The notes under the pieces are model-generated. The model was not told the origin of the DNA, did no database searches, and was given only the letters and a program-made list of their open reading frames with translations. Position numbers and translations under genes: made by a program. From contig LVBK01000017.1 of assembly GCA_001604385.1 (NCBI GenBank), positions 1-64,000 of the forward strand: 64,000 nt of DNA, given 5' to 3'. The DNA is from Spirochaetales bacterium Spiro_09. Its GTDB lineage: Bacteria > Spirochaetota > Spirochaetia > Treponematales > Treponemataceae. This document shows positions 8,180-53,044 of the stretch, in pieces; positions within the stretch are counted from its first letter, which is position 1, and every line of letters begins with the position of its first letter.

Positions 8180-9520
8180 TCAGGTAGCGGGCGTACTACG
8201 GCTATCCTGTATTTTCTTGATTGCGTCAACGATTGTCACATCAAAACTGTCCCGGTTGGAGAGGTTCTTGAGCTGGACAGTCTGACCATCGTCAGAGGCA
8301 AGAATACCCCAGCGGATGGTTTTCTTTTCCGCCCATGCATACTGTTGCGCCATCTTTTTCGCTTCAGGAAATACCTCGCAACTGATTCCCGCACGGTGAA
8401 ACGCAGCAGCAAGGCTGTGATACAACGGAAGGCTTTCAGCCGACTGGCAGAATACTGTCACTTCGGTAAAGGATGCTTTCCCCGGTTGAGGTGAATTTCC
8501 GCGCAGCTGTTCAAGCCCCGCAATAAGACGGTCAAGACCGATGGACGAGCCGACTCCGGAAACCTGCTCTTTCATGTACAGTCCCGCAAGATTATCATAG
8601 CGGCCGCCCGAACATACCGAGCCGATAGACGGTAACTCATCAAGAAAGGTTTCATAGACAACGCCGGTGTAATAATCCAGACCTCGGGTAATTGATGGAT
8701 CAAGCACATACGAAGCGGCTATGCCGCGTGCTTTCATGAAATTGTGTATGTCGCGAAGCCGCGCGGTATCCGCAGCCGGTCCGCCGGCAAGACGTTCAAT
8801 TTTTTCCAGTGTACGGGAAAATTGTTCAATGCGTTCAGTTCCGGTAACGGGTTCGCACTGAATATAATCCAGAATCACACGGGCATTTTCCGCGCCGGCA
8901 AGCTCTTCCAGGAGTCTCCCCGTTTCTTCGGTACCAATTTTGCCCCGCTTGTCGACGGTGCGCAAAATATCCTCGCTTTTGGCGGTCAATCCGCGGTTTG
9001 CGAGAAAGCGGTTGAAAATTCCCCGATGGGAGACTTTTATCGTGACCGCGGAAACGCCGATACTGTCCAGCGCGGTTTTCATCAGGGCAAGAATTTCGAA
9101 ATCTACCGAAGCGGAATCGGAACCGACAATATCAAAGTCGCACTGCACAAATTCCCGGTATCTGCCAGCCTGTGGTTTTTCGCCCCTCCACACCTTTGCG
9201 ATATGATATCGCTTGAAGGGGAAGTACAGCTCTGCCTTATGCTCGGCAACAAAACGAGCGAAGGGGACGGTCAGGTCAAAGCGAAGTGACACGTCCCGGC
9301 CCCCGTTATCCTCGAAGCGGAATACCTGTTTTTCGGTCTCCCCGTCGCTCTTCCGTAACAGAATTTCGGAATACTCCAGGGCAGGGGTGTCGATGGGAAC
9401 AAAACCGAATAGCCGGAATGTCGCGGTTAATTTTTCAATCAGGAGCGCACGCTCAATTTCCTGTTCCGGCAAAAAGTCTCTGAATCCCTTCAGGATTCTG
9501 GCTTGTATAAGGTCTGACAT
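8180..9520 (-). CDS. hisS: Histidyl-tRNA synthetase
   Basis: 446 residues. Charges tRNA-His. Class II motifs are visible: ILKGFRDFLPE at the N-terminus, RFDLTVPFARFVA with KVWRGEKPQAGRYREF (motif 2), GLDYYTGVVYE, the SGGRYDNLAGLY stretch and VGSSIGLDRL (motif 3). The C-terminal 90 residues form the anticodon-binding domain. The start lacks a Shine-Dalgarno; its -10 box ends six bases before the ATG, so the mRNA is probably leaderless. Divergent from coaX. Confidence 0.96.
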   Translation of the reverse strand: MSDLIQARILKGFRDFLPEQEIERALLIEKLTATFRLFGFVPIDTPALEYSEILLRKSDGETEKQVFRFEDNGGRDVSLRFDLTVPFARFVAEHKAELYFPFKRYHIAKVWRGEKPQAGRYREFVQCDFDIVGSDSASVDFEILALMKTALDSIGVSAVTIKVSHRGIFNRFLANRGLTAKSEDILRTVDKRGKIGTEETGRLLEELAGAENARVILDYIQCEPVTGTERIEQFSRTLEKIERLAGGPAADTARLRDIHNFMKARGIAASYVLDPSITRGLDYYTGVVYETFLDELPSIGSVCSGGRYDNLAGLYMKEQVSGVGSSIGLDRLIAGLEQLRGNSPQPGKASFTEVTVFCQSAESLPLYHSLAAAFHRAGISCEVFPEAKKMAQQYAWAEKKTIRWGILASDDGQTVQLKNLSNRDSFDVTIVDAIKKIQDSRSTPAT

Positions 9521-9531
9521 GGTGGTATCAT
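9503..9531 (+). promoter_or_regulatory. coaX promoter, overlapping hisS -10
   Basis: -35 TTGTAT (9503-9508), 17-bp spacer, -10 TATCAT (9526-9531). The -35 lies inside the first codons of hisS. The -10 shares five bases with the divergent hisS -10, so the two promoters should compete. Confidence 0.55.
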
Positions 9532-9555
9532 ACCGACCGGATTCAATTTATGCAA
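9527..9555 (-). promoter_or_regulatory. hisS promoter (leaderless geometry)
   Basis: -35 TTGCAT (9550-9555), 17-bp spacer, -10 TATGAT (9527-9532), then six bases and ATG at 9520. Predicted +1 is the A of the start codon. Its -10 overlaps the coaX -10 on the other strand. Confidence 0.65.
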
Positions 9556-9569
9556 GGAGAACGCGCCGC

Positions 9570-10343
9570 ATGCTGATGGTCATCGATATTGGAAATACAA
9601 ATATTGTTGCCGGTCTTTTTCATTCGGACGATCTTGTGCAGGACTGGAGATTGTACACCGATCCCCGCAGAACGGACGATGAATATGCTTCCATATTGCG
9701 TTCCCTCTTTCGGGATTCGGGCATAGCTCCCGGTACAATCGATAAAACCGTTATCTCGTCCGTCGTGCCGGTGTTGAACAACACCTTTGTGCACGTAGTG
9801 GAGAAATTGACCGGCAAGCGGCCATTCGTTCTTGGTCCCAATCTCTATGCCCTGCTTCCGGTTTCCATACCCGATAGCGCAACCCATGAAATCGGTACCG
9901 ATCTGGTTTGCGATGCGGTCGCTGCCTGGACCCGTTACCGGCGTTCGTGCGTGGTCATTGATTTCGGAACAGCCATGACCTTCACCGCCATAGACGATGA
10001 GGGGGCAATCAGGGGGGTCGCCATCGCTCCCGGCTTGGGAACCGCAGTAAAAGCCCTTTTCAGCGATACTGCCCAGCTGCCCTCGGTGCCCCTCGAAGTA
10101 CCGCCGTCAAGTCTGGGAACCAACACCATTCACGCAATTCAATCGGGGGTTGTACTGGGATATGCCGGATTGCTCGAATCCCTGCTTGAACGTATCCGCC
10201 TGGATCTCGGCGCGCCCGATGCCCCCGCAATCGCAACGGGCGGTATGTCATCGGTCCTGGAGCCGGTAACCTCGGCGTTCGAATCGGTCGACAAACTGCT
10301 TACGCTAAAAGGTTTATGCATTATTGCGCGTGTTATCGGCTGA
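9570..10343 (+). CDS. coaX: Type III pantothenate kinase
   Basis: 257 residues. Phosphorylates pantothenate, the first step of coenzyme A synthesis; coaD, a later step, is also in this window. Motifs of the ASKHA-fold CoaX family: MVIDIGNTNIVAGLF (phosphate 1), EIGTDLVCDAVAAW, VIDFGTAMTFTAID (phosphate 2) and GVAIAPGLGTA. Start at 9570 follows AAGGAGA; a second ATG two codons later is possible. The 3' end overlaps the end of the convergent neuB-like gene by 30 bp. Confidence 0.93.
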   Translation: MLMVIDIGNTNIVAGLFHSDDLVQDWRLYTDPRRTDDEYASILRSLFRDSGIAPGTIDKTVISSVVPVLNNTFVHVVEKLTGKRPFVLGPNLYALLPVSIPDSATHEIGTDLVCDAVAAWTRYRRSCVVIDFGTAMTFTAIDDEGAIRGVAIAPGLGTAVKALFSDTAQLPSVPLEVPPSSLGTNTIHAIQSGVVLGYAGLLESLLERIRLDLGAPDAPAIATGGMSSVLEPVTSAFESVDKLLTLKGLCIIARVIG

Positions 10344-11489
10344 CCTGACAATTATGTCTTCAAGCCTTATGCCATCCCCGTTATTGACATTCCTCGCCAG
10401 TACCGCACCCTCGATCAAGTCCGTGTAGTCGGGATGTATGCCCGGGGACAAGATTTTTTCCGTTCTGAGCGCGGCAAAATCTTTTCGCTCAAGGATAGTT
10501 CCCTGTGAAAGATCCCGCAGGTAGTGAAGCGAACGATTCGTTCTGCCGTAATTAGCCAGTTCAGAGCGCGCAAGTTTTTTTTCGCCGGTACCCAGTATGC
10601 GGTCTATCAGCTCTTTACCGCGTTCCTCCTCAAGGCTCCGGATCGTTCTCTCCCTGCCTTCTGCGCTTGCTCGACGAATCCGTTTGCACATGAGCGCAAA
10701 CTGATCGGGGGGGAGGGCGACCGGGTCGTCAAGCCCGGGATCCGTTCGCGAAAGGCAAATATGCTTTTCAACAATACAGGCACCGCAGGCAGTCGCAAGG
10801 GTTGGTACCAGTACGGGGTCAAGGCTGTGATCGCTTACGCCGACGGCAATGTTGAACAGCCCGGATAAATGGTCCAGAATGTGGAGATTGTAGTCCTGTT
10901 CCGGTGCGGGATAACTGGTTACGCAGTGGAGGAGGGCTCTGTCTCCCGTGGTTTTTTCAGTGCACTCAAGCGCCCGTTCGATATCGCTCATCCGGGAAAC
11001 ACCGGTAGAAAGAACGATCGGCCAGTCAAAGGATGCAACCTCGGACAACAGTTCGGTGTGATTCAGCTCGGGGGACGCAATTTTGACCCAGGCTTCTTCT
11101 GTGCTGTATCCTGAGCGGGCATATACCGTGCGCAGGTCCCGGGCGCTTCGAAGCCCGAAGGGCGTGCACAAAAAAAGCATATCCCGCTCCCGGGCGTATT
11201 GCGCCATCCGGATGTAAAAATCAAGGGGAAGTTCAAGGTCCCTGAATCGGTTGAAAAGCGGAATATTTCCGGTGGGAAGGGGTACGTCGCCGCACATTGG
11301 ATGAAGTATTTCTTCCGCATACACCATTTGAAACTTTACGCAATCGGCTCCCGCTTCCCGCGCGGCATCGATAAGCCTTTGTGCCTTGAGCGGGTCGCCG
11401 TTGTGGCCGGTACCGATTTCCGCGATGATGCAAACTCGTTCGCCAGCACCGAAGCGGTGCGCACCGGCTGAAAAGGTTCGTTTGTTCAT
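10314..11489 (-). CDS. NeuB/SpsE-family synthase with SAF domain
   Basis: 391 residues. N-terminal TIM-barrel of the sialic-acid synthase family (IIAEIGTGHNG, GADCVKFQMVYAEEI, VKIASPELNH, VLSTGVSRM, VGVSDHSLDP, VEKHICL) that condenses PEP with an N-acyl amino sugar. C-terminal SAF (antifreeze-like) domain at about 325-391 (NRSLHYLRDLSQGTIL). Product would be a nonulosonic acid such as Neu5Ac, legionaminate or pseudaminate; the exact one cannot be told. No CMP-transferase is nearby. No Shine-Dalgarno; leaderless promoter geometry. Confidence 0.88.
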   Translation of the reverse strand: MNKRTFSAGAHRFGAGERVCIIAEIGTGHNGDPLKAQRLIDAAREAGADCVKFQMVYAEEILHPMCGDVPLPTGNIPLFNRFRDLELPLDFYIRMAQYARERDMLFLCTPFGLRSARDLRTVYARSGYSTEEAWVKIASPELNHTELLSEVASFDWPIVLSTGVSRMSDIERALECTEKTTGDRALLHCVTSYPAPEQDYNLHILDHLSGLFNIAVGVSDHSLDPVLVPTLATACGACIVEKHICLSRTDPGLDDPVALPPDQFALMCKRIRRASAEGRERTIRSLEEERGKELIDRILGTGEKKLARSELANYGRTNRSLHYLRDLSQGTILERKDFAALRTEKILSPGIHPDYTDLIEGAVLARNVNNGDGIRLEDIIVRSADNTRNNA

Positions 11490-11496
11490 GACGCTG

Positions 11497-11524
11497 ATTG
11501 TAATCGGTCATCGTGTGTTGTCAA
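11497..11524 (-). promoter_or_regulatory. neuB-like gene promoter (leaderless geometry)
   Basis: -35 TTGACA (11519-11524), 16-bp spacer, -10 TACAAT (11497-11502), seven bases, ATG at 11489. The short gap contains no ribosome binding site. Confidence 0.65.
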
Positions 11525-11551
11525 GTGTAGTTCCCGAATAAAAAAACTTGC

Positions 11552-11580
11552 TCGACAAAAGAAAATCGATGCGCTATTAT
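11552..11580 (+). promoter_or_regulatory. Promoter of the zinc-ribbon gene
   Basis: TCGACA (11552-11557), 17-bp spacer, TATTAT (11575-11580); the start codon is 33 bases further on, behind a proper AGGAG. Confidence 0.5.
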
Positions 11581-11613
11581 ACTGACATAGAGGTTCGAGA
11601 TCAGGAGTTATTC

Positions 11614-11838
11614 ATGAAGAGTTTATACTGCGACATTTGTAAGAAAGAGATATCAACACCGGTAAACGGAAGAACCGTCTTTTTTATCAGGGAATTCGAT
11701 GTGTGCGAACCCTGCAAGGATGTCATCGATGCAAAGCTGCGCCCCATTCTCAGAAAGCACGCCCCCTATGCGGCCGATTGGTATGAGCATCAGGTTGTAT
11801 CCCTGATCGAACGGGGTGTATCAACCAGCCGGCCCTGA
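11614..11838 (+). CDS. Small double-CxxC zinc-ribbon-like protein
   Basis: 74 residues from the ATG at 11614, chosen for AGGAG six bases upstream. Two CxxC pairs (YCDICKKE near residue 6, CEPCKD near 32) about 26 residues apart should bind one zinc ion, as in small treble-clef or zinc-ribbon proteins. The rest is helical and charged. Function unknown; it stands alone between the neuB-like gene and yebC, with its own promoter. Confidence 0.75.
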   Translation: MKSLYCDICKKEISTPVNGRTVFFIREFDVCEPCKDVIDAKLRPILRKHAPYAADWYEHQVVSLIERGVSTSRP

Positions 11839-11925
11839 CAGGTTTTCGGCTTATTATACGCTGACTCGTACGGCATGTGGGCATGTAAGGTCTGTTTGTC
11901 ATTGACAGACAAGTATTTACGTGCC

Positions 11926-11955
11926 TTGACATGCTTTTTTTTATTGTGGTATCAT
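11926..11955 (+). promoter_or_regulatory. Promoter of yebC-ruvCAB-queA
   Basis: TTGACA (11926-11931), 18-bp spacer with a T-run, TATCAT (11950-11955). Leader of about 35 bases to the yebC ATG. Confidence 0.65.
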
Positions 11956-11996
11956 CCCAAAAATCCGATTTTTTTCGACCGTAGAAAGGAGCACAT

Positions 11997-12734
11997 ATGT
12001 CAGGACATAGTAAATGGGCGACAATCAAGCACGCCAAGGGTGCCGCCGATGCCAAAAGAGGCCAGCTGTTCACCAAATTTATCAAGGAAATATCAATTGC
12101 AGCCCGTATGGGTGGCGGTGATCCCAACGCAAACCCCCGTCTGAGAACGGCCATACTGAAAGCCCGCGCTGCAAACATGCCCAAGGACAACATCGAGCGC
12201 GCAATCAAGAAGGGAACCGGCGAGCTTGGCGCTGCCGTCTACGAAGAACTCCTGTATGAAGGATATGGACCCGGCGGAGTCGCCGTTCTTGTTGAAGTCC
12301 TGACCGACAATAAAAACCGCGCTGCCGCAAACGTTCGCAACCTGTTTTCAAAGAACGGCGGAAACCTCGGAGCTACCGGATCCGTTGCCTATATGTTCAA
12401 CCGCAAGGGTGTCATTGAATATGACGCTGAAGCCGTCGATGAGGACACTATAATGGAAGTCGGACTCGAAGCCGGTGCCGATGACGTTGCGAATGACGAC
12501 GGGGTAATTACCGTAACCACCGATCCGACCGCTTTTGAAGCGGTGCTTGAAGCTCTGCAGGCAAAGGGCTTTGAATCCCTTTCAGCCGCCATTTCGATGG
12601 TTCCCGACACCTATAGCGAACTTGACGTCGATACCACACGGAAGGTATTAAAGCTCATCGACAAGCTTGAAGAAGACGATGATGTCCAGAACGTGTACTC
12701 AAACCTCGATATCCCCGAAGGATTTGAAGAGTAA
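11997..12734 (+). CDS. yebC: YebC/PmpR family protein
   Basis: 245 residues. N-terminal signature [20 protein letters not shown] is diagnostic of the YebC/TACO1 family; [19 protein letters not shown] and [19 protein letters not shown] also match. Members are DNA/RNA-associated and reported as transcriptional regulators or as factors easing ribosome stalling at proline stretches, which would suit the polyproline tracts of the repeat protein at 1-643 (inference). AAAGGAG precedes the ATG. Often next to ruvC, as here. Confidence 0.95.
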
Positions 12735-12736
12735 AT

Positions 12737-13929: not shown

Positions 13930-13933
13930 CGGA

Positions 13934-20589: not shown

Positions 20590-22078
20590 GGGTGCATTCC
20601 TTGAAACCGGGTATATAGTGTTCCAGGATGCGAACAAGATGGTCTTTGTCCCGGTACCTGGTTGATTGTGTTTCATCGTATTCGCATACCGGACGCAGTT
20701 CGGCAAGCAGTTTCTCCAGTTCAATCGGAGCGGTTTCATCCCGCTTCAGTGCAAGAATCTTGGAAAAATCGGTTTGTTCAGGATGCTCGCTTTTTGACCA
20801 CAGCGGTTCATCAAGGCGTTCGCCGGGCCGTTTTCCGATAAATTCTATACGTATGTCCGTTCCCGGCTCATGACCGGTAAACCTGATAAGCTGCTCGGCG
20901 ACATCCAGTATTCTAACCGGTTCTCCCATATCAAGCAAATACGATTTTCCGTTTTCTCCGACACCGCCGGTTTTCAGGACAAGCGAACAAGCCTCGGGAA
21001 TTGTCATAAAATAACGGACCATGTCCGGATCTGTGACGGTAACGGGGCCGCCCTTTCTGATCTGTTCCATGAACAGGGGAAGAATGGATCCGCGGGAACC
21101 AAGCACATTTCCGAATCGGACAAACATGAACGCTCTCTCCTCCCCCTTCATGCGTGATACCTGACGGGCAGATCGCAGCACCAAACGTTCGCACAGCATC
21201 TTGGAAATACCATAGACGGACACGGGATCAACCGCCTTGTCCGTAGAAATAAGCACAAACCGCTTGACGCCGGCTTCAAGGCAGGCCTCCAGAAGATGTA
21301 TGGTGCCGAATACATTGTTTTCGATTACCGCAACAGGATTAGCCTCCATCAGGGGGACATGCTTATATGCCGCGGCATGAAAAACCACGTCGCATCGCAG
21401 TTTTCCGATAATATACCGCATGTACCGCGCGTTTTTAAGATCCCCGATGACCGGAACTATTGTCGCCTTCTCGCCAACTCCCTCTTCCTGCAAAAGGCGC
21501 AATTCCCGGTCTATTTGATAGATCGAGTTCTCGCCGTGACCAAAGAGATAAATGCGCTCTGCTCCTCCCGAAAGAAGCTGCCGGGCAATTTCACTGCCGA
21601 TCGAACCTCCCGCTCCGGTAATCAATACGCGTTTCCCGCGGAGGTAGGCAAGGCTTTTTTTCAGGTTTATTGCGACGGGCGCACGGCCCAACAGGTCCTG
21701 GGGATCAATATCACGGGTCTGGATGAGGTGTGCCGTCCCTTCCACAATTTGGGCGATATTGGGCAGTAATCTGATTCGGGTAAAACCGCTTGTATGAAGA
21801 ACCGCGTAAATCGAGCGTAAGGTCTCGGGTGTCGCGCTCGGGATGGCAATCAATGCCTCATCCTTTGCACCCGGCCGTATCAATCGTGCCGCATGATCTA
21901 CCGGGCCAAGAACCGGGACCCCGTCAATCGTGTTCCCGATTTTATTCCGGTCATCGTCCAAAAATGCGACAACCTCGCCGAATACCCCTTTTTCGCGAAT
22001 TTCCCGGGCAAGCATGCTTCCCGCAAGGCCTGCGCCGATAATATATATGCTAGCTCCGCCCGAATCTCTTGCCATCAT
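20582..22078 (-). CDS. CapD/FlaA1-type nucleotide-sugar dehydratase, soluble form
   Basis: 498 residues. Residues about 10-125 form a Rossmann-like domain (IYIIGAGLAGSMLAREI); about 145-440 the extended SDR domain: VLITGAGGSIGSEIARQL, FHAAAYKHVPLME, LISTDKAVDPVSVYGISK. These match UDP-GlcNAc/QuiNAc 4,6-dehydratases (PglF, WbpM, CapD). The four N-terminal membrane helices of membrane-bound members are missing, so the enzyme is predicted cytosolic. Overlaps the loaP-like gene (ATGA type). Confidence 0.9.
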   Translation of the reverse strand: MMARDSGGASIYIIGAGLAGSMLAREIREKGVFGEVVAFLDDDRNKIGNTIDGVPVLGPVDHAARLIRPGAKDEALIAIPSATPETLRSIYAVLHTSGFTRIRLLPNIAQIVEGTAHLIQTRDIDPQDLLGRAPVAINLKKSLAYLRGKRVLITGAGGSIGSEIARQLLSGGAERIYLFGHGENSIYQIDRELRLLQEEGVGEKATIVPVIGDLKNARYMRYIIGKLRCDVVFHAAAYKHVPLMEANPVAVIENNVFGTIHLLEACLEAGVKRFVLISTDKAVDPVSVYGISKMLCERLVLRSARQVSRMKGEERAFMFVRFGNVLGSRGSILPLFMEQIRKGGPVTVTDPDMVRYFMTIPEACSLVLKTGGVGENGKSYLLDMGEPVRILDVAEQLIRFTGHEPGTDIRIEFIGKRPGERLDEPLWSKSEHPEQTDFSKILALKRDETAPIELEKLLAELRPVCEYDETQSTRYRDKDHLVRILEHYIPGFKECTHG

Positions 22079-22596
22079 TCATGTTCCATTATTTCAAAGG
22101 CAAAATCTATGAGGAATGATTCCTCATACATATCCAGTTTAACTTTGGCCCTGCCTTTTCGGCGGTCAACCTTGACGATGCGACCTTCCATACCCTTGAG
22201 GGGACCCTGAAGCACCTTGATGCGAGAATTTTCGTCAAACACCACCTTCGAGCTGTCGGCTATGCCTCCCAGCCTCACAAAATGCTTCAGTGTCGCAAGA
22301 TCGCGTCCCGCAAGGGGTAACGGATTTTTACTTTCCGGCAAAAACCGGTAAAAACCCGGAGTTGTTCGAAAACACCAGTACAATTGGTCATTAAGTTCTT
22401 CGGCTTCCAGAAATATATATCCGGGAAACACGGGCTCGATGCCCGTAATCACTTTACCGTCCTTTCTTCGCGGCAATTTCCTTTGCGGAAAGATGAATTG
22501 TATGTTTTCCCTCAAGGAGCATGGCGTACACACAAGAGCACGCTTGATGAAGGTATCTTCATCACCTGTTTTTACCTGCAGAACAAAATAGTTCAT
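22075..22596 (-). CDS. Specialised NusG paralogue (LoaP/RfaH-like antiterminator)
   Basis: 173 residues. NGN domain at about 1-105 (NYFVLQVKTGDEDTFIKRAL, then EPVFPGYIFLEAEEL) and a C-terminal KOW domain (IKVLQGPLKGMEGRIVKVDRRKGRAKVKLDM). Short NusG paralogues at the head of polysaccharide operons act as operon-specific antiterminators that let RNA polymerase read through long clusters. Here it is the first gene of a six-gene unit with capD-like, aminotransferase and hydroxylase genes. No Shine-Dalgarno before the ATG. Confidence 0.88.
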   Translation of the reverse strand: MNYFVLQVKTGDEDTFIKRALVCTPCSLRENIQFIFPQRKLPRRKDGKVITGIEPVFPGYIFLEAEELNDQLYWCFRTTPGFYRFLPESKNPLPLAGRDLATLKHFVRLGGIADSSKVVFDENSRIKVLQGPLKGMEGRIVKVDRRKGRAKVKLDMYEESFLIDFAFEIMEHE

Positions 22597-22602: not shown

Positions 22603-22611
22603 ACCATATCA
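22603..22611 (-). promoter_or_regulatory. loaP-like gene extended -10 promoter (leaderless geometry)
   Basis: TGA-TATGGT: extended -10 (TGn) with hexamer 22603-22608, then six bases and ATG at 22596. The -35 (TTCCAT at the expected spacing) is weak, as is common for extended -10 promoters. Confidence 0.45.
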
Positions 22612-25848: not shown

Positions 25849-28617
25849 CTATAATCCGTGACAGTGCTTGTATTTCTTTCCGCTTCCGCAGGGGCAGGGG
25901 TCATTGCGTCCTACCTTGGGCGTTGTTCGCACTACCTGTACGTTGGACGGATTGCTTGCCGCAAGCGGTCCTGCCTTTTTTTGCGGTGCGGTGGAGGAGG
26001 CCCCATGCCCGAAGGTATCCATGGCCTGATGTTGCGCGTTGCCCGCGGTTTGACGGTACTGCCTGACCGGTGACGAGTCGCGGTCAACACGAACCTGTAC
26101 CAGGAATACCCGCGAGGCAATCTCAAGCCGGATAGAGTCGAGCATTTCGTAGAAGATGTCAAAACCTTCAAGCTTGTACTCCGTCAGGGGGTTCTTTTGG
26201 CCGTAGGACCGCAAATATACGGCTTCGCGCAGTGACTCAAGGTTTTCAAGATGATCAAGCCATTTCCTGTCTATTGCCTGCAGATACTGGTAGCGGATGA
26301 AGGTGTTCAGGTTTTCCTTTCCAACCAGATTCTCCTTCTCGGCAATTTCTTTGCGGAAAATTGCCGAAAGCTCCGCCTTGGCCTCCTCGGGGTTTTTCAA
26401 TGCCCTGTTGGCAAGCTCCTGTTGGATGGTATACCCGAATTTTTCTTTCAGATTGGTCGCCAGCGTAATAAAGGCCTCGTCGCCGTTTTTTCGGGCGGCG
26501 GGAACAAAGCCGTCAATATATTCTTCTATATGCTCTTCAGCGGTTTCTATCGCGCGTTCCACCAGATTTGAGTCGTCAAGAATCGCGTTTCGCTGGTTGT
26601 AAATATACGAGCGCTGCTCGTTCAGTACATCGTCATATTCAAGCAGGTGCTTTCGTATCTCGAAGTTACGTTCCTCAACCTTTGACTGGGCGCGCTCAAT
26701 ACTCTTGTTGAGCCAGGGATGATAGATCGGCTCTCCCGGTTCCATCCCTATCTTCGTCATCAGGTTTTTCAGGTTTGTGCCGCCGAACAGGCGCATCAAA
26801 TCGTCATCCATCGAGATAAAGAACCGTGAACGGCCCGGGTCTCCCTGCCGTCCGGAACGCCCCCGCAGCTGGTTGTCGATACGGCGGCTTTCATGCCGTT
26901 CTGTACCGATTACATACAGCCCGCCAAGTTCCTTGACCTCGCGGTAATCCTGCTGCCATTTCCGGTATTCTTCCTCGAAGATCTCGGTGTATTTTTCAAT
27001 CGGTGCATCCGTTCCGGCTCGCCTGCGCGCGCGGAATTCCGGGTTGCCCCCAAGCTTTATGTCCGTTCCACGCCCAGCCATGTTGGTTGCTATGGTTATC
27101 GAACCCCGGGCGCCAGCTTCGGCAATAATCAAAGCCTCACGCGCATGGTTTTTGGCGTTCAGAACCTCATGGCGAATTCCCCGCTTCGTCAGCAGGGAAG
27201 AAATACGTTCGGACTTTTCGATTGAAACGGTTCCTACCAGGACAGGCTGGCCCCGTTTGTGTGCCTCGGCTATCTCGTCGCAGAGCGCTGTCCATTTATC
27301 GGTTTCGTTCAGATACACCACATCATCTTCGTCTTTTCGGGCAACCGGAAGGTTTGTGGGAATAACGACCACTTCCAGATTGTATATCTTGCTGAATTCA
27401 ACGGCTTCCGTATCAGCGGTGCCGGTCATGCCCGACAACTTGTCATACATGCGGAAATAGTTCTGGAATGTGATCGTTGCCATGGTCCGGTTACGCTGGG
27501 CTATTTTAATTTTTTCCTTCGCTTCAATCGCCTGATGCAAACCGTCACCATAGCGTCTGCCTTCCAGAATGCGTCCGGTGAACTCGTCGACTATTTGAAC
27601 CTGACCTTCCTTTACCACGTAATCAACGTCTATCTGATACAGATGGTGGGCCCGAACGGCCTGGGTGAAATAATGGATATACTCGAAGTTTGCCTCGTCG
27701 AAAAGACTTCCGGAAATCAAGCCGCGGTTTTGCAATATGGATTCTATATGGTTCATTCCCTCATCGGTAAAGGAAACCTTGCGATTTTTCTCCTCAAGCT
27801 TGAAGTCCCCGGACATACTTTCTCCCTGGGCTTCATCAGGATATTCCCCGGTGGCGGGGTTTTTTTCAACCTCTTTGAGCTGGCCGACCAGTTTGTCCAC
27901 TTCAAAGAAACGCGCCGTATCGTCTTCGGCTGAACCGGAAATGATGAGCGGGGTTCTTGCCTCATCAATCAATATCGAGTCAATTTCGTCCACAACCGCA
28001 AAGTTGAATTTTCGTTGGGTTCTTTCAGAAATTTCCCATTTCATGTTGTCGCGCAAATAATCAAAACCAAGTTCGTTGTTTGTCGCGTAGGTAATATCGC
28101 AACTGTACGCCTTTTTGCGCGATTCATTGTCCATGTTTGACAGGATTGAACCGACCGTCACCCCGAGATACGAGTAAACGGGGCGCATCCAGTCGGCATC
28201 GCGTTCCGCAAGGTAATCGTTGACGGTAACTATATGCACGCCTTTTCCGGAAAGGCTGTTCAAGTATGCGGCTGCGACGCTCATGAGGGTTTTTCCCTCG
28301 CCGGTTTTCATTTCCACTATTCTGCCTGAATGGAGTACCAGCGAACCCAGTATTTGCACGTCATAGGGACGTTCTCCCAGTACCCGGCGAGCCGCCTCAC
28401 GGGCAAGAGCGAAGGCCTCGGGCAAAAAATCGTCAAGGGATTCTCCCCCGGAAAATCTCTGGCGGAATTCCCTCGATTTTTGCGGAAATTCCTCCGGCTT
28501 CAGGGCAAGGGCCCAGGATTCTTTTTCATTAATTTTATGAAGAACAGGAAGCAAGGCTTTTATATCACGTTCGTGCTGTGATCCAAAGAAAAAACGTATT
28601 ATTGTATCTGTTATCAT
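25849..28617 (-). CDS. secA: Preprotein translocase ATPase SecA
   Basis: 922 residues. Drives Sec export through Sec[11 protein letters not shown] (Walker A), [21 protein letters not shown] (DEAD-type Walker B), [42 protein letters not shown] motif VI, and a C-terminal zinc finger [16 protein letters not shown] that binds SecB/lipid. Full length. Promoter -10 ends six bases before the ATG and there is no Shine-Dalgarno. Confidence 0.98.
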
Positions 28618-28623
28618 TGATAC

Positions 28624-28652
28624 ATACTACTAAAAGCGGCGCCGGTTGACAA
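28624..28652 (-). promoter_or_regulatory. secA promoter (leaderless geometry)
   Basis: -35 TTGTCA (28647-28652), 17-bp spacer, -10 TAGTAT (28624-28629), six bases, ATG 28617. Shares its -35 bases with the divergent promoter at 28646. Confidence 0.65.
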
Positions 28653-28674
28653 GCATGAAAATGAATTCTACCCT
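28646..28674 (+). promoter_or_regulatory. Promoter of the 28730 lipoprotein operon
   Basis: TTGACA (28646-28651), 17-bp spacer, TACCCT (28669-28674, weak -10). The leader to the ATG is about 50 bases and carries GGAGGT. Confidence 0.45.
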
Positions 28675-28729
28675 GAACCAGTCCGTATTCTGTGTCGGGT
28701 CTGTTAATCCGGGCGGAGGTGAGAATTTC

Positions 28730-29956
28730 ATGAATCGCATACATCGGCATCAAGCCGTTTTGCTCGCAGTCAGTACCCTCTCTTTATTGCTTGTTTCCTG
28801 TCGCGAGACCCCGGTCAGTAACGTCGACCGCGAACGGCTTTTTACCCTGTCCTACGGCCGATATGAGGATGAGATCGATCTTTTCCAGCTTGCGTCGTCT
28901 TCGACCGGTGCCGATACGCAGCTTTTCATGAAAGACGGGATGTTTTATATCGCGAATTCCGGTTCACAAAAAGTATTGCAGTTCACTTCATTTGGCGACC
29001 TTCTTTCGGTATATTACAACGCGGAGACGAATCCGCAACCTTCTTTCGGGGCCATCAGCCAGCAGGAACAGGGCGCCTCAACGCGGCGAGCCGTTGCCCA
29101 TCCCCTTAATCATCCGGTATATCTCGCCGTGGACAATTTGAAACGACTGTACGTGTCGGACCGGCTGCCGGTAGAGCGATATGAATTCGACTCGGAAAAT
29201 CAGCTGGTATTGAGGGAAGTCGTTCTTCGTTTCGGAACTGACGGGCAGTATCTTGATTATATAGGCCAGGAAGGCCCCGGCGGAACACCGTTTCCTCCCA
29301 TAGACGGCGTATTCGTTACTTCGCGGAACGAGCTTGCCGTTATTACAAAAAGCCAATCCGGTTTGCAGGTTTTCTGGTTCAGTCCTGACGGCTCCCTGCT
29401 TTACCGGATTCCGTTTCAATACCGTTCCTTGCCCGACCCCTATGGCGGAGAGAAGAAAGCGTATGCGTCCCTCGAAAAGATTATTCCCGATTCCGACACA
29501 CGCAGACTGTATGTGAAAATCGATTATTATACCGAGGACATTGATGAGGCTACCAGGGCGAATGCGGGTATCAGTTTTGACCGCAGCTGTCTGTATCCGT
29601 TTTCCATAGAAAACGCCGCGTATGACGAGCGGATCGATTTGCCGGTATTTGAGGGGGTCGACAAGGACCGTCTCGGGACCTTCTCGTTCAAGAAACCGTA
29701 CGAACTGCTCGGTATTACCTCGACAGGATGGATCTTCCTGAGTACTCCCTCGGAGAGCGGGTATACACTCGAAATACTCGATTCCCGGTCACGACGCATA
29801 CAACGGCGGTACTTGTCGATTGCCCCGGATGAACTGGTGTATAACGCCCTTCATGTGTCTTCAGGAGGAATTCTGTCCGCATTGCTTGCTAGCGACTATG
29901 ATGCGCGCATTGTATGGTGGAGAACCGACATGATTATCGGAGAGGCCTTGCGGTGA
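28730..29956 (+). CDS. Lipoprotein, probable beta-propeller (NHL/6-bladed type)
   Basis: 408 residues from ATG 28730 with GGAGGT nine bases upstream. Signal peptide ends LLLVSC (lipobox). The mature protein has repeated strands of the kind MFYIANSGSQKVLQF, VYLAVDNLKRLYVSD, ELAVITKSQSGLQVFW and SSGGILSAL, spaced about 60 residues as in NHL-type propellers. No enzymatic motif. It leads an operon of five genes ending at 31732. Function unknown. Confidence 0.78.
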   Translation: MNRIHRHQAVLLAVSTLSLLLVSCRETPVSNVDRERLFTLSYGRYEDEIDLFQLASSSTGADTQLFMKDGMFYIANSGSQKVLQFTSFGDLLSVYYNAETNPQPSFGAISQQEQGASTRRAVAHPLNHPVYLAVDNLKRLYVSDRLPVERYEFDSENQLVLREVVLRFGTDGQYLDYIGQEGPGGTPFPPIDGVFVTSRNELAVITKSQSGLQVFWFSPDGSLLYRIPFQYRSLPDPYGGEKKAYASLEKIIPDSDTRRLYVKIDYYTEDIDEATRANAGISFDRSCLYPFSIENAAYDERIDLPVFEGVDKDRLGTFSFKKPYELLGITSTGWIFLSTPSESGYTLEILDSRSRRIQRRYLSIAPDELVYNALHVSSGGILSALLASDYDARIVWWRTDMIIGEALR

Positions 29957-34938: not shown

Positions 34939-36224
34939 TTCCAGCCCTGCCTCCGGATTATTCCGTCAGCAGCTCTGAGTCCTGAAGCCCATGCACCTGT
35001 GATGCCGCGGGAGGTTCCGGCTCCATCACCGATAAGGTAGATGTCCGTATCAGCCATGAAATTGTTATCTATGAATTGGGGTTTATTTGCGTACAGTTTA
35101 ATCTCCGGATAATATAATATGGTGCCAGGATGTAATACCCCCGGCACAATGGTGTCCAGTTGTTTAAGCGCCTTCCATATTGACCGGAGAAATTTTGCAG
35201 GCATCGCAAGGGATATATCCCCGGGAGTACACGAGGGCAGTGACGGGGCAAAATCATATAGATCATCATTCAATCCGTCCCGGGTTGTCCGTTTTCCCAG
35301 ACGAAAATCTCCGATTCGTTGCATGATCGGATGTCCCCCTCCGGTCAGCATTGCCAGAGACGCCAAATACTCGGCATAATCCTGTCCTGAGGCGATCGGT
35401 TGGGTAAAGTCAACACTTTTGAGCACTGCAAAGTTCACCAGCCCGTTTGTTTTGTTGCCAGCCGAGAACGCATGCCCGTTGACGCTATACCAGATTTGTC
35501 CGTTGGCCGCTGTGTATCGTTCCTGCACGACGTGCGCTGCGCCAGAGTTTGTACAGAATGTGCGCGTCCGCTCGGGAAAAAGGAATTTCGGATCATAGTA
35601 ATCCCGAACTATGGGGTAATTGTCTATGCGTGTTTCGACGCGGATACCGACATCAATACTGTTGTCGGTGAACGGAATCGAATTGGCACTCATGAATTTT
35701 CGCAGAAAGTCAAAGCCATGCCTGCCGGGAGCAAGAATGAGCTGGTTCCATTGAATATCCCGGCGGGATGTATGGGCGATTTTCTCCTGTTTGTCGATCG
35801 ACAGTAATTCTTCTTCAAGCGCAATCGTCACTCCTGCCTTTTCAAGGCGGGCTACGAGTTCCTTGATCAAGGCAAGTCCCCCGTCAGTTCCCAGGTGGGA
35901 TTGACGAATTGAAAGAAGTTCTACTCCTATCCGGCTGGCCCTCTTCTGATAGGTTGCTATATGTTTTTGGGGCATAATATCCGGTTTCAGGAAGTTTTCA
36001 GTTCTTTCCAGGTATTGTGCCGCGCTTTGCCTGTCCCAAAACTCTACCGGGAATCCGATAGGGTAGGTAAAGTTCATCTTGCAGTCATTGCGCAAACCAC
36101 CCGATGAGGTTTTATTCTGCTCGAGTATCAATATACGTGCCTGGGGTCGTGTTTCCAGAATTCCGAAGGCCGCACCCAGGCCTGCAGGACCTGATCCTGC
36201 GATCAGGCAATCAAAGTGTTCCAT
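34935..36224 (-). CDS. FAD-dependent dehydrogenase (COG2509-like)
   Basis: 429 residues. N-terminal dinucleotide-binding motif CLIAGSGPAGLGAAFGI, then LILEQNKTSSGGLRNDCK. The C-terminus closes with IYLIGDGAGTSRGITGAWASG, the second FAD contact typical of this NAD(FAD)-utilising dehydrogenase family. Substrate unknown. No Shine-Dalgarno; an extended -10 (TGATATACT, 36233-36241) lies eight bases upstream, overlapping the previous gene's stop. Confidence 0.85.
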   Translation of the reverse strand: MEHFDCLIAGSGPAGLGAAFGILETRPQARILILEQNKTSSGGLRNDCKMNFTYPIGFPVEFWDRQSAAQYLERTENFLKPDIMPQKHIATYQKRASRIGVELLSIRQSHLGTDGGLALIKELVARLEKAGVTIALEEELLSIDKQEKIAHTSRRDIQWNQLILAPGRHGFDFLRKFMSANSIPFTDNSIDVGIRVETRIDNYPIVRDYYDPKFLFPERTRTFCTNSGAAHVVQERYTAANGQIWYSVNGHAFSAGNKTNGLVNFAVLKSVDFTQPIASGQDYAEYLASLAMLTGGGHPIMQRIGDFRLGKRTTRDGLNDDLYDFAPSLPSCTPGDISLAMPAKFLRSIWKALKQLDTIVPGVLHPGTILYYPEIKLYANKPQFIDNNFMADTDIYLIGDGAGTSRGITGAWASGLRAADGIIRRQGWK

Positions 36225-36238
36225 ATACCTAGAGTATA

Positions 36239-48283: not shown

Positions 48284-48320
48284 AAAACAATGAAACCGGC
48301 CCTGTTTCCATGACCGGCTT
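48284..48320 (-). terminator. Weak terminator-like hairpin between tsf and frr
   Basis: On the minus strand AAGCCGG ... CCGGTTT (seven pairs with one wobble) followed by TTTCATTGTTTTT. May attenuate read-through from rpsB-tsf into frr. Confidence 0.35.
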
Positions 48321-48340
48321 CCAGTTCCATTCTGATATGT

Positions 48341-49180: not shown

Positions 49181-49194
49181 AAAACCGTTTCTCC

Positions 49195-50067
49195 TTATTT
49201 CTCGTCATAGAGCTTGTCTTCGTCAACAAGCGGTTCCTGGTCATCGGATTCAATATCTGTCTTGGATTCCACCGGAGTATAGTTGCTGTAATCCACGATT
49301 TCTTCTTCATCAACCCGGCCAGCAAGAACACTGTCTGATGAGTCTTCATCATCATCCTGGAGATTCTCGATAATTTTCAGTCCATTTTCATTGTCCGCTT
49401 CTACTACAGCATTCGCAATGATTTGGGTGAACAGAGAAATGGCGCGAATTGCATCATCATTTCCGGGAATGGGGTAGTCGATGCCTTCGGGGTTGCAGTT
49501 AGTATCTACAACCGCAACAATGGGAATACCCATGCGGCGTGCTTCCGCAACGGCAATTGTCTCTTTTCTGGTATCGATGACAAAAATTATTCCGGGCAGA
49601 TCTTTCATTTCTTTAATACCGCCCAGGTTTTTTTCCAGCTTTGTCTTTTCTTTTTGCAGTGCCGCAATTTCTTTTTTTGTCAGGCTCTCATAGGTGCCGT
49701 CAATTTCCATCTTCTCGATCTTTTTAAGGCGAAGAAGACTTTTCTTTATGGTAGTGAAATTGGTAAGCATACCGCCAAGCCAGCGGTTGTTAATGTAGAA
49801 CATGCCACAGCGTTCTGCTTCCTTTGCGATAGTCTGCTGAGCCTGCTTTTTGGTTCCGACAAACAGAACGCTCTTACCTGCCGCGGTGGTCTTGCGTACC
49901 GCCTCGTAAGCCTCCTTGATCGAAAGAATTGTCTTCTGAAGATCAATGATATGAATGCCATTGCGTTCCGCGAAGATATACTTCTTCATGCGGGGATCCC
50001 AACGCTTGACCTGGTGTCCAAAATGTACACCTGATTCAAGCAAACTCTTCATGGTTACTACTGCCAT
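49195..50067 (-). CDS. rpsB: 30S ribosomal protein S2
   Basis: 290 residues. [61 protein letters not shown], and PDTNCNPE-type loop ([25 protein letters not shown]). Acidic C-terminal extension of about 60 residues. AAAGGAG before the ATG. The leader contains a small hairpin (GATAC/GTATC, 50090-50102). Confidence 0.97.
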
Positions 50068-50166
50068 GAGATTACTCCTTTGTCCTGCCGATACTGTGTA
50101 TCAGCAAAGCCCTTCTCTGTGTCTCGGCCACATATCGTGTCCGGAAGATGTGCCGGTTGCCCGTTG

Positions 50167-50754
50167 CTAAACAACGAAATCATAACCGTGCTCGCGCAGG
50201 GTAACATATAATTCGTGTATAGGCAAGCCTACAATTCCACTGAAAGAACCGGATATCGAGCTGATAAAACAGGATGCAAGACCCTGTATTTTATATGAAC
50301 CAGCAGCTCCCTGCCATTCACCTGAATCAAGATACTTCTCGACTTGAGCTTCATCCAGATCAATCATGGTTACCCGGGAAATGCTTGTTTTTGTCGAGAT
50401 ATATTGTGTTCCCGCATCAAACAGGCACAGTGCGGTGATTACTTCATGCGTGTTACCCGACAAATACATCAACATTTCTTTAGCTTCATCACGGCTGGAA
50501 GGTTTTCCGAATATGGAGCTGTTAATATGAATCAGTGTATCTGCTCCGAGCACCCATGATGCGGTTATGTTCATATTCGTTCTAATAACCGATTCAACTT
50601 TTTTCATGGCATGATATTCAGCAAGTTGTGCTGCATTCATCCCATCAACAGGCAATTCTTCATATTGTGGAGTAACTACCGTAAAGGGAATGCCAAGTTC
50701 CTTCAGGATTTCCTGGCGACGTGGCGAGGTGGATGCAAGAATGATGGGTTGCAA
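50167..50754 (-). CDS. maf: Maf-like nucleotide pyrophosphatase
   Basis: 195 residues from TTG 50754, chosen because GGAGGAG lies five to six bases upstream and the sequence QPIILASTSPRRQEILKELG begins the family core. A GTG at 50778 without ribosome site is the alternative. VLGADTLIHINSSIFGKP, GNTHEVITALCLF and GSYKIQGLASCFISSISGSFSGIVGLP (DTV/SVxGxSxxV-type loops). Hydrolyses dTTP, UTP or modified bases. Confidence 0.9.
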   Translation of the reverse strand: MQPIILASTSPRRQEILKELGIPFTVVTPQYEELPVDGMNAAQLAEYHAMKKVESVIRTNMNITASWVLGADTLIHINSSIFGKPSSRDEAKEMLMYLSGNTHEVITALCLFDAGTQYISTKTSISRVTMIDLDEAQVEKYLDSGEWQGAAGSYKIQGLASCFISSISGSFSGIVGLPIHELYVTLREHGYDFVV

Positions 50755-50771
50755 AAAAACTCCTCCAATGA

Positions 50772-50801
50772 TTGACACGAATAGCGTTTTAACTTTATTA
50801 T
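50772..50801 (+). promoter_or_regulatory. Promoter of tRNA-Arg
   Basis: TTGACA (50772-50777), 18-bp spacer, TATTAT (50796-50801), about ten bases before the tRNA 5' end. Confidence 0.75.
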
Positions 50802-50811
50802 CTGCACATTC

Positions 50812-50885
50812 GGAAGATTAGCTCATTTGGATAGAGCGTTGCCCTCCGGAGGCAAAGGCGGTGGGTTCGAATCCCGCATCTTCCA
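50812..50885 (+). tRNA. tRNA-Arg (CCG)
   Basis: 74-nt cloverleaf: acceptor GGAAGAT/ATCTTCC, D-stem GCTC/GAGC, anticodon stem TTGCC/GGCAA with loop CTCCGGA (anticodon CCG), T-arm TTCGAAT. Discriminator A; CCA not encoded. Confidence 0.95.
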
Positions 50886-50910
50886 GACATTGTAATATCA
50901 TCAGGCGATA

Positions 50911-50940
50911 AAAAAACCCGGTTTTCACCGGGTTTTTTTT
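50911..50940 (+). terminator. Bidirectional terminator between tRNA-Arg and the HEAT gene
   Basis: AAAAAACCCGG, loop TTTTCA, CCGGGTTTTTTTT. T-tract on both strands, so it ends the tRNA transcript and the opposing gene. Confidence 0.9.
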
Positions 50941-51671
50941 TATTGTCTTGTCGTCTGACTGGTATTGTTATTCGCGTTGTTTCCGTTATTTCCGCTAACC
51001 GTGCGTAAGACTTCATAGGCCCTGTTACGTACTGGCGTGACATAATTATAGTTACTCGCTATGCGGATAATCGAGGAGATCATTCCCGATTTGTTTTCAA
51101 CGCTTGGAGCCAATTTTTCGTAGGTGTTAAGCACTTCCAGTGCAAGAGAACTGGTCGGCAGAATTATATCAAATTTGCGGGTAATCCAGTTGATCATCTC
51201 GACAACTTCATCATTATCATTAAATCCCAGTTCGCCCAGTGAGCGTACTGCGGAAGTGATAACCATAGGCTCATTGTCCGAATACATCACTGCCACAAGT
51301 GTATCTTTAGCCTGTTCGCTGCCCATTTTACCCAGAAGCTCGCAGGCCTTTGCCCGAACATCCGGGAAATTGTTCATCGTCCGACCACTTTCACGGGCTA
51401 CCGACCCGACTCCCACCGTTGCCAGTGAATCAAGTGCAACCTGAATATCTTCTGTGGTCCTGCCAGACTCGATCGCATTTTCTATGTATTGGAGGGCGAC
51501 CATCTTGTTATCCCGACCGTCTGCCGTTGCGAGTTCCCTGATGATGACGCCCTCAACCGAACTGAGATACGCTTCTTCAACGGTCATAATATTCTCTGTA
51601 TTCTGGGCACCTGCGATACCGGAAATGACCAATGCAAATGAAGCGGCAATTGTTAGAACCTTAAAACGCAT
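50940..51671 (-). CDS. Exported HEAT-repeat protein
   Basis: 243 residues from ATG 51671, with AGGAGG nine bases upstream. Signal peptide (about 1-22, cleavage after GAGA). Five or so HEAT-like helical repeats (DNKMVALQYIENAIESG, DVRAKACELLGKMGSEQAKDT, MVITSAVRSLGELGFNDND, VRNRAYEVLRTV) and an Asn-rich end. A periplasmic scaffold, partner unknown. Confidence 0.82.
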   Translation of the reverse strand: MRFKVLTIAASFALVISGIAGAQNTENIMTVEEAYLSSVEGVIIRELATADGRDNKMVALQYIENAIESGRTTEDIQVALDSLATVGVGSVARESGRTMNNFPDVRAKACELLGKMGSEQAKDTLVAVMYSDNEPMVITSAVRSLGELGFNDNDEVVEMINWITRKFDIILPTSSLALEVLNTYEKLAPSVENKSGMISSIIRIASNYNYVTPVRNRAYEVLRTVSGNNGNNANNNTSQTTRQ

Positions 51672-51737
51672 ACAGAAGACCCTCCTGGTCATTAAAAACG
51701 TCCAATCCTTACAGGATTTTTATATACAAGCATATCA

Positions 51738-51760
51738 CCGCTTCAAGCGGTTTCTTTTTT
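51738..51760 (+). terminator. Terminator-like hairpin, plus orientation, no obvious gene upstream
   Basis: CCGCT, loop TCA, AGCGG, then TTTCTTTTTT. It faces right between two leftward genes. Could end an antisense transcript or act in the leader of the HEAT gene. Confidence 0.35.
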
Positions 51761-51851
51761 GAGGCATTAGCCGATTATTTCGCCAATTCTCAATCGCATA
51801 TCTATACCATTATAACCGTCAACAAAGCCATTAAGTCAAGTGTAATCGGGT

Positions 51852-52436
51852 TTACTGATTTTTCAAGACAAGTTGCCACTTTTCTCCATATTTTTCCAGT
51901 ATGTATATGGCAGCGGTGGAACCGGGTGCCAGTTCCATAATAACATATACCCTGGTCGGGCTGACATATTGAATATCATCCACCCGCATATTTTGTCGAG
52001 AGGGTACGAACACATACATAAAATAATCGCGGAGATTTCTCAGGCGAATTCCCTTGATTGGCAGGCTTGATGATACAGACTCGAGCACTGCCGGATCAGA
52101 ATAGGTATCAACATACTCTGTAGACAGATATTCAAGCCATGCATCATAATTCCTTGCAAATGTAATTCTGTTCAGATCGCCCACAACCAGTTCAATTTCA
52201 CTTTTGGTTTCCAGAAATGCTTTTTTGGTTATTGAAACCGTATCGAATGTAGCTACAACTTCTGTATCCTCGGCAACTGGAGCGTCAACGGGTTCTGTAC
52301 GGGAAATATCGCTGTCTGTTTCTACAACTGACTGATTTGAATCCGGTAACTCCGAAATTCCTTCCTGTGGTATGCTGGAACAGGAGTAAAGAAACAATAG
52401 AAGTGGTAACACGACCAGGCAGAGCTTCGGTTTCAT
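51852..52436 (-). CDS. Lipoprotein of unknown function
   Basis: 194 residues. Signal peptide ends FLYSC (lipobox). Residues about 20-60 are an acidic linker; the remainder (LVVGDLNRITFARNYDAWLEYLS, YVIMELAPGSTAAIYILEKYGEKWQL) looks like a cystatin/NTF2-like alpha+beta fold. No Shine-Dalgarno; -10 box ends six bases before the ATG, so probably leaderless. Divergent from coaD. Confidence 0.8.
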   Translation of the reverse strand: MKPKLCLVVLPLLLFLYSCSSIPQEGISELPDSNQSVVETDSDISRTEPVDAPVAEDTEVVATFDTVSITKKAFLETKSEIELVVGDLNRITFARNYDAWLEYLSTEYVDTYSDPAVLESVSSSLPIKGIRLRNLRDYFMYVFVPSRQNMRVDDIQYVSPTRVYVIMELAPGSTAAIYILEKYGEKWQLVLKNQ

Positions 52437-52442
52437 ACTGAT

Positions 52443-52471
52443 ATACTAGCTGTTCCGGAGAAATTCGTCAA
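52443..52471 (-). promoter_or_regulatory. Lipoprotein promoter (leaderless geometry)
   Basis: -35 TTGACG (52466-52471), 17-bp spacer, -10 TAGTAT (52443-52448), six bases, ATG 52436. Confidence 0.65.
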
Positions 52472-52502
52472 ACATCTTTTTCAACTTGAACGGGATTTAC
52501 CC

Positions 52503-52531
52503 TTGACGAGTAATCATCTAGCGCATAGATT
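52503..52531 (+). promoter_or_regulatory. coaD promoter (leaderless geometry)
   Basis: -35 TTGACG (52503-52508), 17-bp spacer, -10 TAGATT (52526-52531), six bases, ATG 52538. The gap ACTGTA holds no ribosome binding site. Confidence 0.65.
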
Positions 52532-52537
52532 ACTGTA

Positions 52538-53044
52538 ATGGTAAAGGCTATCTTCCCCGGTTCTTTTGATCCTCCTACTTTTGGTCATCTCAATATTATT
52601 GAACGAGCAAGGACTATGTTCAGTGAAATTCACCTTGTCGTAGCAGTAAACAGCGAGAAGAAATATTTATTCAGCGAACGGGAACGGGTTGATCTTCTGA
52701 GTGAGCTGGTTCGCCAGTGGGATAACGTATTTGTGCATACCTGTAATAGACTTATTGTCGAATACGCACGGAGCCTGGGAATACAGGTTCTGATCCGTGG
52801 CGTGAGGAATTTGGCAGATTTTTCATACGAGTTTGATTTGGCCATGATGAACAGGGGTTTGAATCCTGAAATAGAGACGGTTTTTTTGTCTACAGACCCC
52901 GAATTCTTTGTTCTTCGGTCAAGCGCAATCAAGGAACTCGCTTCTTACGGCGGCGATGTGTCCTCAATGGTTCCGGTTCCGGTTGCCGAAGCCCTGAAGC
53001 GAAAGTTCGCTCCGGCACTAATGAAGCATGACAAAAAGTCATAA
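52538..53044 (+). CDS. coaD: Phosphopantetheine adenylyltransferase
   Basis: 168 residues. Penultimate step of coenzyme A synthesis. [21 protein letters not shown] (TxGH nucleotidyltransferase motif), [52 protein letters not shown]. Followed by rpmF after 104 bp. Confidence 0.96.

Follow-up and report, generated by a model that had tools for sequence, protein, structure and literature searches.

The question raised by this 64,000-nucleotide (nt) stretch of the genome of Spirochaetales bacterium Spiro_09 (contig LVBK01000017.1, positions 1 to 64,000; the window) is whether six of its genes are expressed from leaderless messages. In hisS, secA, coaD, a lipoprotein gene, a neuB-like gene and a NusG/LoaP-like (loaP-like) gene, a promoter -10 box ends 6 or 7 nt before the ATG. 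Leaderless or near-leaderless transcription of the group from sigma-70 type promoters is very probable, and less so for the neuB-like gene. This conclusion, drawn from sequence, is based on the observed promoter positions, start codons that are forced, the absence of Shine-Dalgarno (SD) sites, a genome-wide peak of -10 boxes with its lower edge at 6 nt, and a spacing that is conserved in relatives.

All promoter elements quoted in a preliminary description of the window were found in the sequence, on the strands and at the gaps claimed, the gap being the number of nt between the end of the -10 box (TANNNT) and the start codon. The hisS gene (8180–9520, minus strand) is preceded by TTGCAT (9550–9555) and by TATGAT (9527–9532), which ends 6 nt from the ATG at 9520. 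The same gap of 6 nt is found in secA (25849–28617, minus strand; TTGTCA at 28647–28652, TAGTAT at 28624–28629, ATG at 28617), in the lipoprotein gene (51852–52436, minus strand; TTGACG at 52466–52471, TAGTAT at 52443–52448, ATG at 52436), and in coaD (52538–53044, plus strand; TTGACG at 52503–52508, TAGATT at 52526–52531, ATG at 52538), and the spacer is 17 nt in all four. The neuB-like gene (10314–11489, minus strand) has TTGACA (11519–11524), a 16-nt spacer and TACAAT (11497–11502), 7 nt from the ATG at 11489. Upstream of the loaP-like gene (22075–22596, minus strand), an extended -10 element, TGATATGGT (22603–22611), ends 6 nt from the ATG at 22596, and the -35 box is not clear.

The gene names given previously agree with the Pfam matches, which are tRNA-synt_His for HisS, NeuB and SAF for the NeuB-like protein, NusG and KOW for the NusG-type protein, the SecA domains, and CTP_transf_like for the CoaD cytidylyltransferase. 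The lipoprotein has no Pfam match, and its N-terminus, LFLYSC, reads by eye like a lipoprotein signal. In each of the six genes an in-frame stop lies 12–30 nt upstream of the ATG (at 30 nt in hisS, 15 nt in the loaP-like gene and 12 nt in secA) without a start codon between, hence the ATG is forced as the start. As had been claimed, all six starts are ATG, and the stretch scanned upstream contains no SD core in any of the six genes. The N-termini of the families agree with these starts for coaD, hisS, secA and the loaP-like gene. That of the neuB-like protein fits its family less well, as its relatives often align only from residue 4–22. Wrong start assignment was thus ruled out by the upstream stops and the family N-termini. 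A known structured leader was likewise rejected, since Rfam and ARAGORN found three tRNAs and nothing else in the 64-kb window. Among the 62 gene models of the window, which are our own calls with the starts of the previously described genes entered by hand, eight have TANNNT at gap 6–8 and no SD site.

The source genome is a 2.72-Mb draft in 83 contigs, 88% complete and probably a metagenome-assembled genome (MAG), in which no 16S match was found; the window is its contig C3. The spacing was examined in 662 kb, window included, or about a quarter of the genome, where 508 genes were called with a home-made periodic Markov model that ignores SD sites and promoters and penalises GTG and TTG starts. 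The background was taken as the mean over gaps 14–39. For the 261 genes lacking an SD site, TANNNT boxes at gaps 3 to 12 numbered 2, 6, 2, 36, 21, 11, 7, 6, 11 and 5. A genome-wide peak at 6–7 nt among SD-less genes had been proposed as the check on the six, and it is present, with 36 and 21 genes over a background of 3.46 per position (Poisson tail 2e-24 at gap 6). The 247 genes with an SD site, which make SD-led initiation the mode of about half of the genes in this genome, gave 2, 2, 0, 2, 2, 2 and 0 at gaps 3 to 9. Boxes at gap 6–8 and SD sites avoid each other, the former being present in 6/247 SD genes versus 64/261 SD-less genes (Fisher p 2e-14).

The lower edge of the peak is sharp, with 2 SD-less genes at gap 5 and 36 at gap 6. 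Transcription usually begins about 7 nt after the -10 box, so that a gap below 6 nt would truncate the 5' AUG, and an edge at this place is expected if a complete AUG is required. Starts of the SD-less genes with gap 6–8 are ATG in 62/64 and GTG in two, in calls by a program that penalises GTG, and the in-frame two-box promoters at gap 6–7 precede 37 ATG, 2 GTG and no TTG codons. Genes facing a divergent neighbour need a promoter of their own; 33 of the 144 are of the leaderless type and 55 have an SD site, as compared with 2 and 16 of 44 in Escherichia coli K-12. The excess at gaps 6–8 is about 58 genes, or 11% of 508, and gaps 6–11 give about 14% by our arithmetic. As a rough estimate, some 11–14% of the genes in this genome would be leaderless.

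The same spacing is kept in relatives. Upstream regions were anchored on homologous starts, and the genome's own copy was counted for every gene except secA. A TANNNT box stands at gap 6–7 in 62/79 family relatives for secA (73/79 at gap 5–8; 80 loci, of which L082 lacked a usable start and was dropped), in 43/54 upstreams for coaD (46/54 at gap 5–8; every genome with a match among 60 searched), in 40/46 for hisS (from 58 genomes with a match) and in 16/19 for the lipoprotein gene (20 loci of 54 matching genomes, one without a start being dropped). The lipoprotein misses L276–L278 look like misassigned internal GTG starts and are still counted. Treponema vincentii and a Gracilinema caldarium MAG are named examples of the secA layout. 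The spacers vary freely, and the boxes and their distance to the start are retained, as judged by eye and in agreement with column scores. In the start-anchored columns of secA, coaD and hisS, the T of the -35 box, TA at -12/-11 and T at -1 are prominent, as is T at -7 in secA and hisS. There is no purine-rich run in these columns, apart from a single G column at -14 in hisS. An SD-like core occurs upstream of 9/79 secA, 5/54 coaD and 2/46 hisS genes.

The identity of HisS is only 34–37% in G364, G410, G411, G414 and G415 versus 57–78% in the other listed relatives, which suggests that the hisS type may have been replaced in these five members of the family.

The support is not the same for all six genes, and two of them are weaker. 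For the neuB-like gene (30 loci of 54, two without a start being dropped), a box at gap 6–7 is found in 9/28 upstreams. For the loaP-like gene (30 loci of 46 matching genomes), it is found in 15/30, and in 30/30 when the gap is allowed to be 6–10. The loaP-like upstreams (L204–L233) mostly lack a clear -35 box, many have an extended -10 box (TG before TANNNT), and the box may lie anywhere in gap 6–10.

Beyond the family, a wider set of 30 genomes was used, in which 20 further families of the class were represented by one or two genomes each, along with eight genomes from outside the class. secA was usable in 29 of these (a partial match in G163 was dropped), as was coaD (G138, where no start was found, was dropped). 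Both boxes of secA are present at gap 5–9 in 15/22 in-class genomes of other families (two near-identical, from one family), and the TANNNT box alone is at gap 5–8 in 16/22. Both boxes are present at gap 5–9 in none of the seven secA upstreams from outside the class. For coaD, a box at gap 5–8 occurs in 13/21 genomes of the class and in 2/8 outside it, one of these two with an SD site. Six class members (L327, L329, L332, L341, L343 and L344) carry an SD-like core upstream of secA, either in place of the boxes or together with them. Thus, an uncommon but known mode of translation start looks old and maintained in these spirochaetes.

These data may be explained as follows. The main sigma-70 type RNA polymerase would use promoters in which 6 (to about 8) nt separate the -10 box from the start codon, and, going by the usual distance from the -10 box, the RNA would begin on the A of the AUG or 1–2 nt earlier, giving a leaderless or near-leaderless message. 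In other bacteria, the ribosome binds the 5'-terminal AUG of leaderless mRNAs directly. Here also, translation would proceed without an SD site, the 5'-terminal AUG being bound directly, probably by the 70S ribosome, or else by the 30S subunit with initiation factor 2 and initiator tRNA.

Closest to this explanation, and compatible with it, is the view that the messages have short leaders, with a few nt between the transcription start and the ATG at gaps 7–10. The tail of the peak (21, 11, 7 and 6 genes at gaps 7 to 10) and the range of gaps 6 to 10 among loaP homologues are in keeping with this, as are the 5' ends of Leptospira, which spread over 0–10 nt in the sections of the mapping study available to us (PMC5243855). 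In this genome, as in the families of secA, coaD, hisS and the lipoprotein gene, a gap of 6 nt is seen more often than any other, which makes short leaders rather unlikely. Additional promoters farther upstream may also yield leadered copies of the same genes, which would count against a purely leaderless state.

It is very improbable that the boxes are chance matches in AT-rich DNA, the true promoters being farther upstream and the messages ordinary leadered ones lacking SD sites. TANNNT is a weak motif, for which a chance match is possible in any single gene (3.46 of 261 per position), the poor retention of the neuB-like spacing (9/28) would fit such a view, and a further window model (1091–1531) has an unexplained gap-7 box that may itself be due to chance. 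Chance boxes would, however, hardly peak at one fixed spacing or keep their layout across diverged secA, coaD and hisS sequences, and two controls speak against them. In a scan of 787 in-frame and 423 out-of-frame ATGs at three levels of strictness, two-box promoters with gap 6 preceded 27, 24 and 16 in-frame ATGs and 0, 0 and 0 out-of-frame ones, the values for gap 5 being 0, 1 and 0 versus 1, 1 and 0. In 121 genes of E. coli K-12 treated by the same pipeline, there is no gap-6 peak (0, 3 and 0 at gaps 6–8, background 1.04). Together, the peak at a fixed distance and the results for out-of-frame ATGs and for E. coli led to the rejection of chance boxes. Over the whole genome, TTGAC-16..18-TANNNT-6-ATG has 26 matches versus 1 for the reversed pattern, gene-start status having been checked for part of them; the looser pattern with gap 0–30 (166 versus 95 reversed) mixes gene starts with other ATGs and serves as a lead.

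The least probable alternative, which can be practically dismissed, is transcription as predicted with translation from a downstream in-frame codon preceded by an SD site: such codons exist in coaD (codon 27, an ATG preceded by AAGGA) and in the loaP-like gene (codons 41 and 49, TTG and GTG, each preceded by AAGGA), but their use would remove family-conserved residues, as 30/30 relatives of each protein align from residue 1 and the nucleotide-binding motif of CoaD ([I/V]F[P/A]GSFDP-type) already begins at residue 5, and none is present in the first 50 codons of hisS, secA, the neuB-like gene (which has no other in-frame start at all there) or the lipoprotein gene. Downstream SD-led starts that fit the family alignments better, which the preliminary description had named as evidence to the contrary, were thus not found.

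Boxes were counted in other genomes as well. At gaps 6, 7 and 8, two congeneric genomes (118 genes together) gave 5, 6 and 2, G019 (61 genes) 3, 2 and 3, G163 (59 genes) 3, 1 and 0, and G138 (11 genes in 21 kb, mostly short contigs) 3, 0 and 0.

Several findings weigh against leaderless transcription or against its generality. The signal is weak in G200 (66 genes; 1, 2 and 1 at gaps 6–8). No peak was observed in G101 (73 genes; 1, 3 and 2, background 2.7), in G006 (57 genes; 0, 1 and 0), in G147 (25 genes in 34 kb, mostly short contigs; 0, 0 and 0) or in G056, a 1.14-Mb genome of the same family (51 genes in 80 kb; 0, 1 and 0) where coaD starts with GTG and lacks a box. Hence the trait varies even inside the family. 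The relatives are not independent samples, and the spacing of the neuB-like gene is weakly kept among them (see above). An SD-like core is also present in 5/54 two-box candidates, and the gene caller, with its penalties on GTG and TTG, at first misplaced the start of coaD, which makes the leaderless fraction rough. A pyrimidine at -1 is in excess in SD-less genes with gap 6–8 (51/64 versus 151/247 SD genes, p 0.005); the excess is not significant at gap 6 alone (26/36, p 0.27), and the available sections of PMC3160421 describe dipyrimidines preceding the start as a signal in their own right in other groups. As proof that transcription starts at the A of the ATG, the -1 pyrimidine was set aside, and it is suggestive only.

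The hisS gene of G056 (L424) is preceded by TTGAAA-17-TACACT-7-GTG, although the 80 kb examined in this genome have no general peak, and a leaderless GTG start is possible there. Matches to the pattern of a promoter 6 or 7 nt before an ATG exceed those to its reverse in G138 (166 to 13), G147 (159 to 5) and G163 (171 to 9). Leaderless genes may be more numerous in these lineages, from which few stretches were sampled; in G147 none of 25 genes had a box at gap 6–8. The phylum-wide tally of the pattern (392 genomes), in which gene starts are not separated from other ATGs, is likewise a lead.

In the 662 kb there are 54 two-box candidates at gap 6–8, six of them in the window. Of the 48 outside, 30 were compared with Pfam, and the proteins recognised include DNA polymerase I, PurD, a DnaJ-domain protein, RnfC, Tex and PhoH, together with an OmpR-type regulator, a pyridine-nucleotide oxidoreductase, a sigma factor and transporters. 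Eight of the 30 have no match at E 1e-8, and in another eight the domain begins within the first six residues, which confirms the start of those eight. Two further window genes that had been described as near-leaderless have the boxes ascribed to them, both on the minus strand. A FAD-dependent oxidoreductase-like gene has TATACT (36233–36238) at gap 8 from its start at 36224 and a second box, TACTCT, at gap 6. The gene for the CCA-adding enzyme (Pfam PolyA_pol head) has TATACT (55755–55760) at gap 10 from its start at 55744.

The secA promoter is part of a bidirectional arrangement (28617–28730). Its -35 box lies in a palindrome, TTGTCAA/TTGACAA, that is common to a promoter pointing away from secA (TTGACA-17-TACCCT, 28646–28674, plus strand) and overlapping the secA -35 box. 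The divergent gene (28730–29956, plus strand) has no Pfam match and a lipobox-like LLVSC by eye, and is lipoprotein-like. The secA side is of the leaderless type, and the divergent side is leadered in this genome, with GGAGG at 28715 as its SD site. The palindromic -35 box is present in 24/78 secA loci, and 12 of these 24 have a -10 box on the other side as well. The far side reaches a start codon at gap 6–9 in eight loci (L066, L067, L070–L074 and L077, with L071 and L072 nearly identical), and at the leaderless-type gap of 6–7 in L066, L067, L070, L073, L074 and L077. A back-to-back placement of the two -35 boxes (GTCAA-2-TTGAC) also occurs in the class outside this family. In L331, two leaderless promoters of 35 bp each, with 2 bp more, make up the whole 72-bp intergenic region, and in L336 and L337 the gaps are 75 bp, with the far-side box at gap 8–9. 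The secA neighbours in these three loci are lipoprotein-like by their N-termini, as judged by eye.

The 662 kb contain 72 divergent gene pairs, and just two of these are of the leaderless type on both sides, one across a 540-bp gap and the other in the 63 bp of C11:26568–26630 (L034:6568–6630), where two complete leaderless promoters overlap in one palindromic -35 box. The hisS gene and an SD-led gene for type III pantothenate kinase are also divergent, and the 49 bp between them (9521–9569) contain the entire hisS promoter.

A tentative interpretation, possible rather than probable, is that leaderless secA, in the first place, and leaderless coaD and hisS are an old trait of the Spirochaetia under selection, with a minimal bidirectional promoter driving secA. 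The secA/lipoprotein gap of 64–75 bp would, in several lineages, hold both promoters, back to back or sharing a -35 box, and the lipoprotein side would switch between the leaderless and SD-led states with the secA side remaining leaderless. If so, secA and the lipoprotein gene would respond differently to the state of the ribosome or the initiation factors. Leaderless secA across families and the switching lipoprotein side provide a natural series for studying why a gene stays leaderless.

Leaderless messages had been called little described in spirochaetes. That is correct for the Treponema side, where no study of leaderless mRNA was found in the literature searched, most subscription journals lying outside it; Treponema-related matches (a gene-finder citation, antimicrobial peptides and a toxin-antitoxin review) were discarded as not concerned with leaderless Treponema mRNA. 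It is not correct for the phylum, as Leptospira has been mapped and leaderless genes have been predicted in 6/18 spirochaete genomes, judging from the available sections of the two papers discussed below. SD-tuned gene finders can misplace starts in genomes of this kind.

The signal observed here is that of the TA-led genes of Zheng et al. 2011, in which the SD site is replaced by TANNNT some 12 nt upstream of the start (PMC3160421). In the sections of that study available to us, the six spirochaete genomes have a mean of 3.9% predicted leaderless genes (1.8–6.9%), which is below the 11–14% of the present genome, a rough value obtained by another method. The names Treponema, Borrelia and Leptospira do not occur in its main text.

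Leptospira falls outside the class Spirochaetia. Leptospira interrogans resembles this genome as a spirochaete with many leaderless or near-leaderless genes (PMC5243855). According to the sections available, mapped starts lie 0–10 nt from the start codon in 430–450 of its genes, and exactly at the start codon in 184 genes at 30 °C and 170 at 37 °C. The 5' ends of L. interrogans were mapped experimentally, whereas the leaderless state is predicted here from -35 and -10 boxes that are clear; in the same sections, no promoter motif besides sigma-54 was found for Leptospira. The main text of that paper does not mention secA, hisS or coaD.

Mycobacterium tuberculosis and Deinococcus deserti, with 505 and 1174 leaderless mRNAs, respectively, as quoted in the available part of PMC5243855, also combine leaderless and leadered messages in one genome. 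The leaderless share is lower here than in those two species, and the starts are mostly ATG (62/64, with GTG penalised by the caller). Leaderless genes as such are already known, and the present data would add the Treponema side to the range of a translation-start mode that is known in part, with named, conserved and essential genes such as secA, hisS and coaD as test cases. What appears to be new is the deep conservation on these genes and the minimal bidirectional promoter predicted for secA and the lipoprotein gene.

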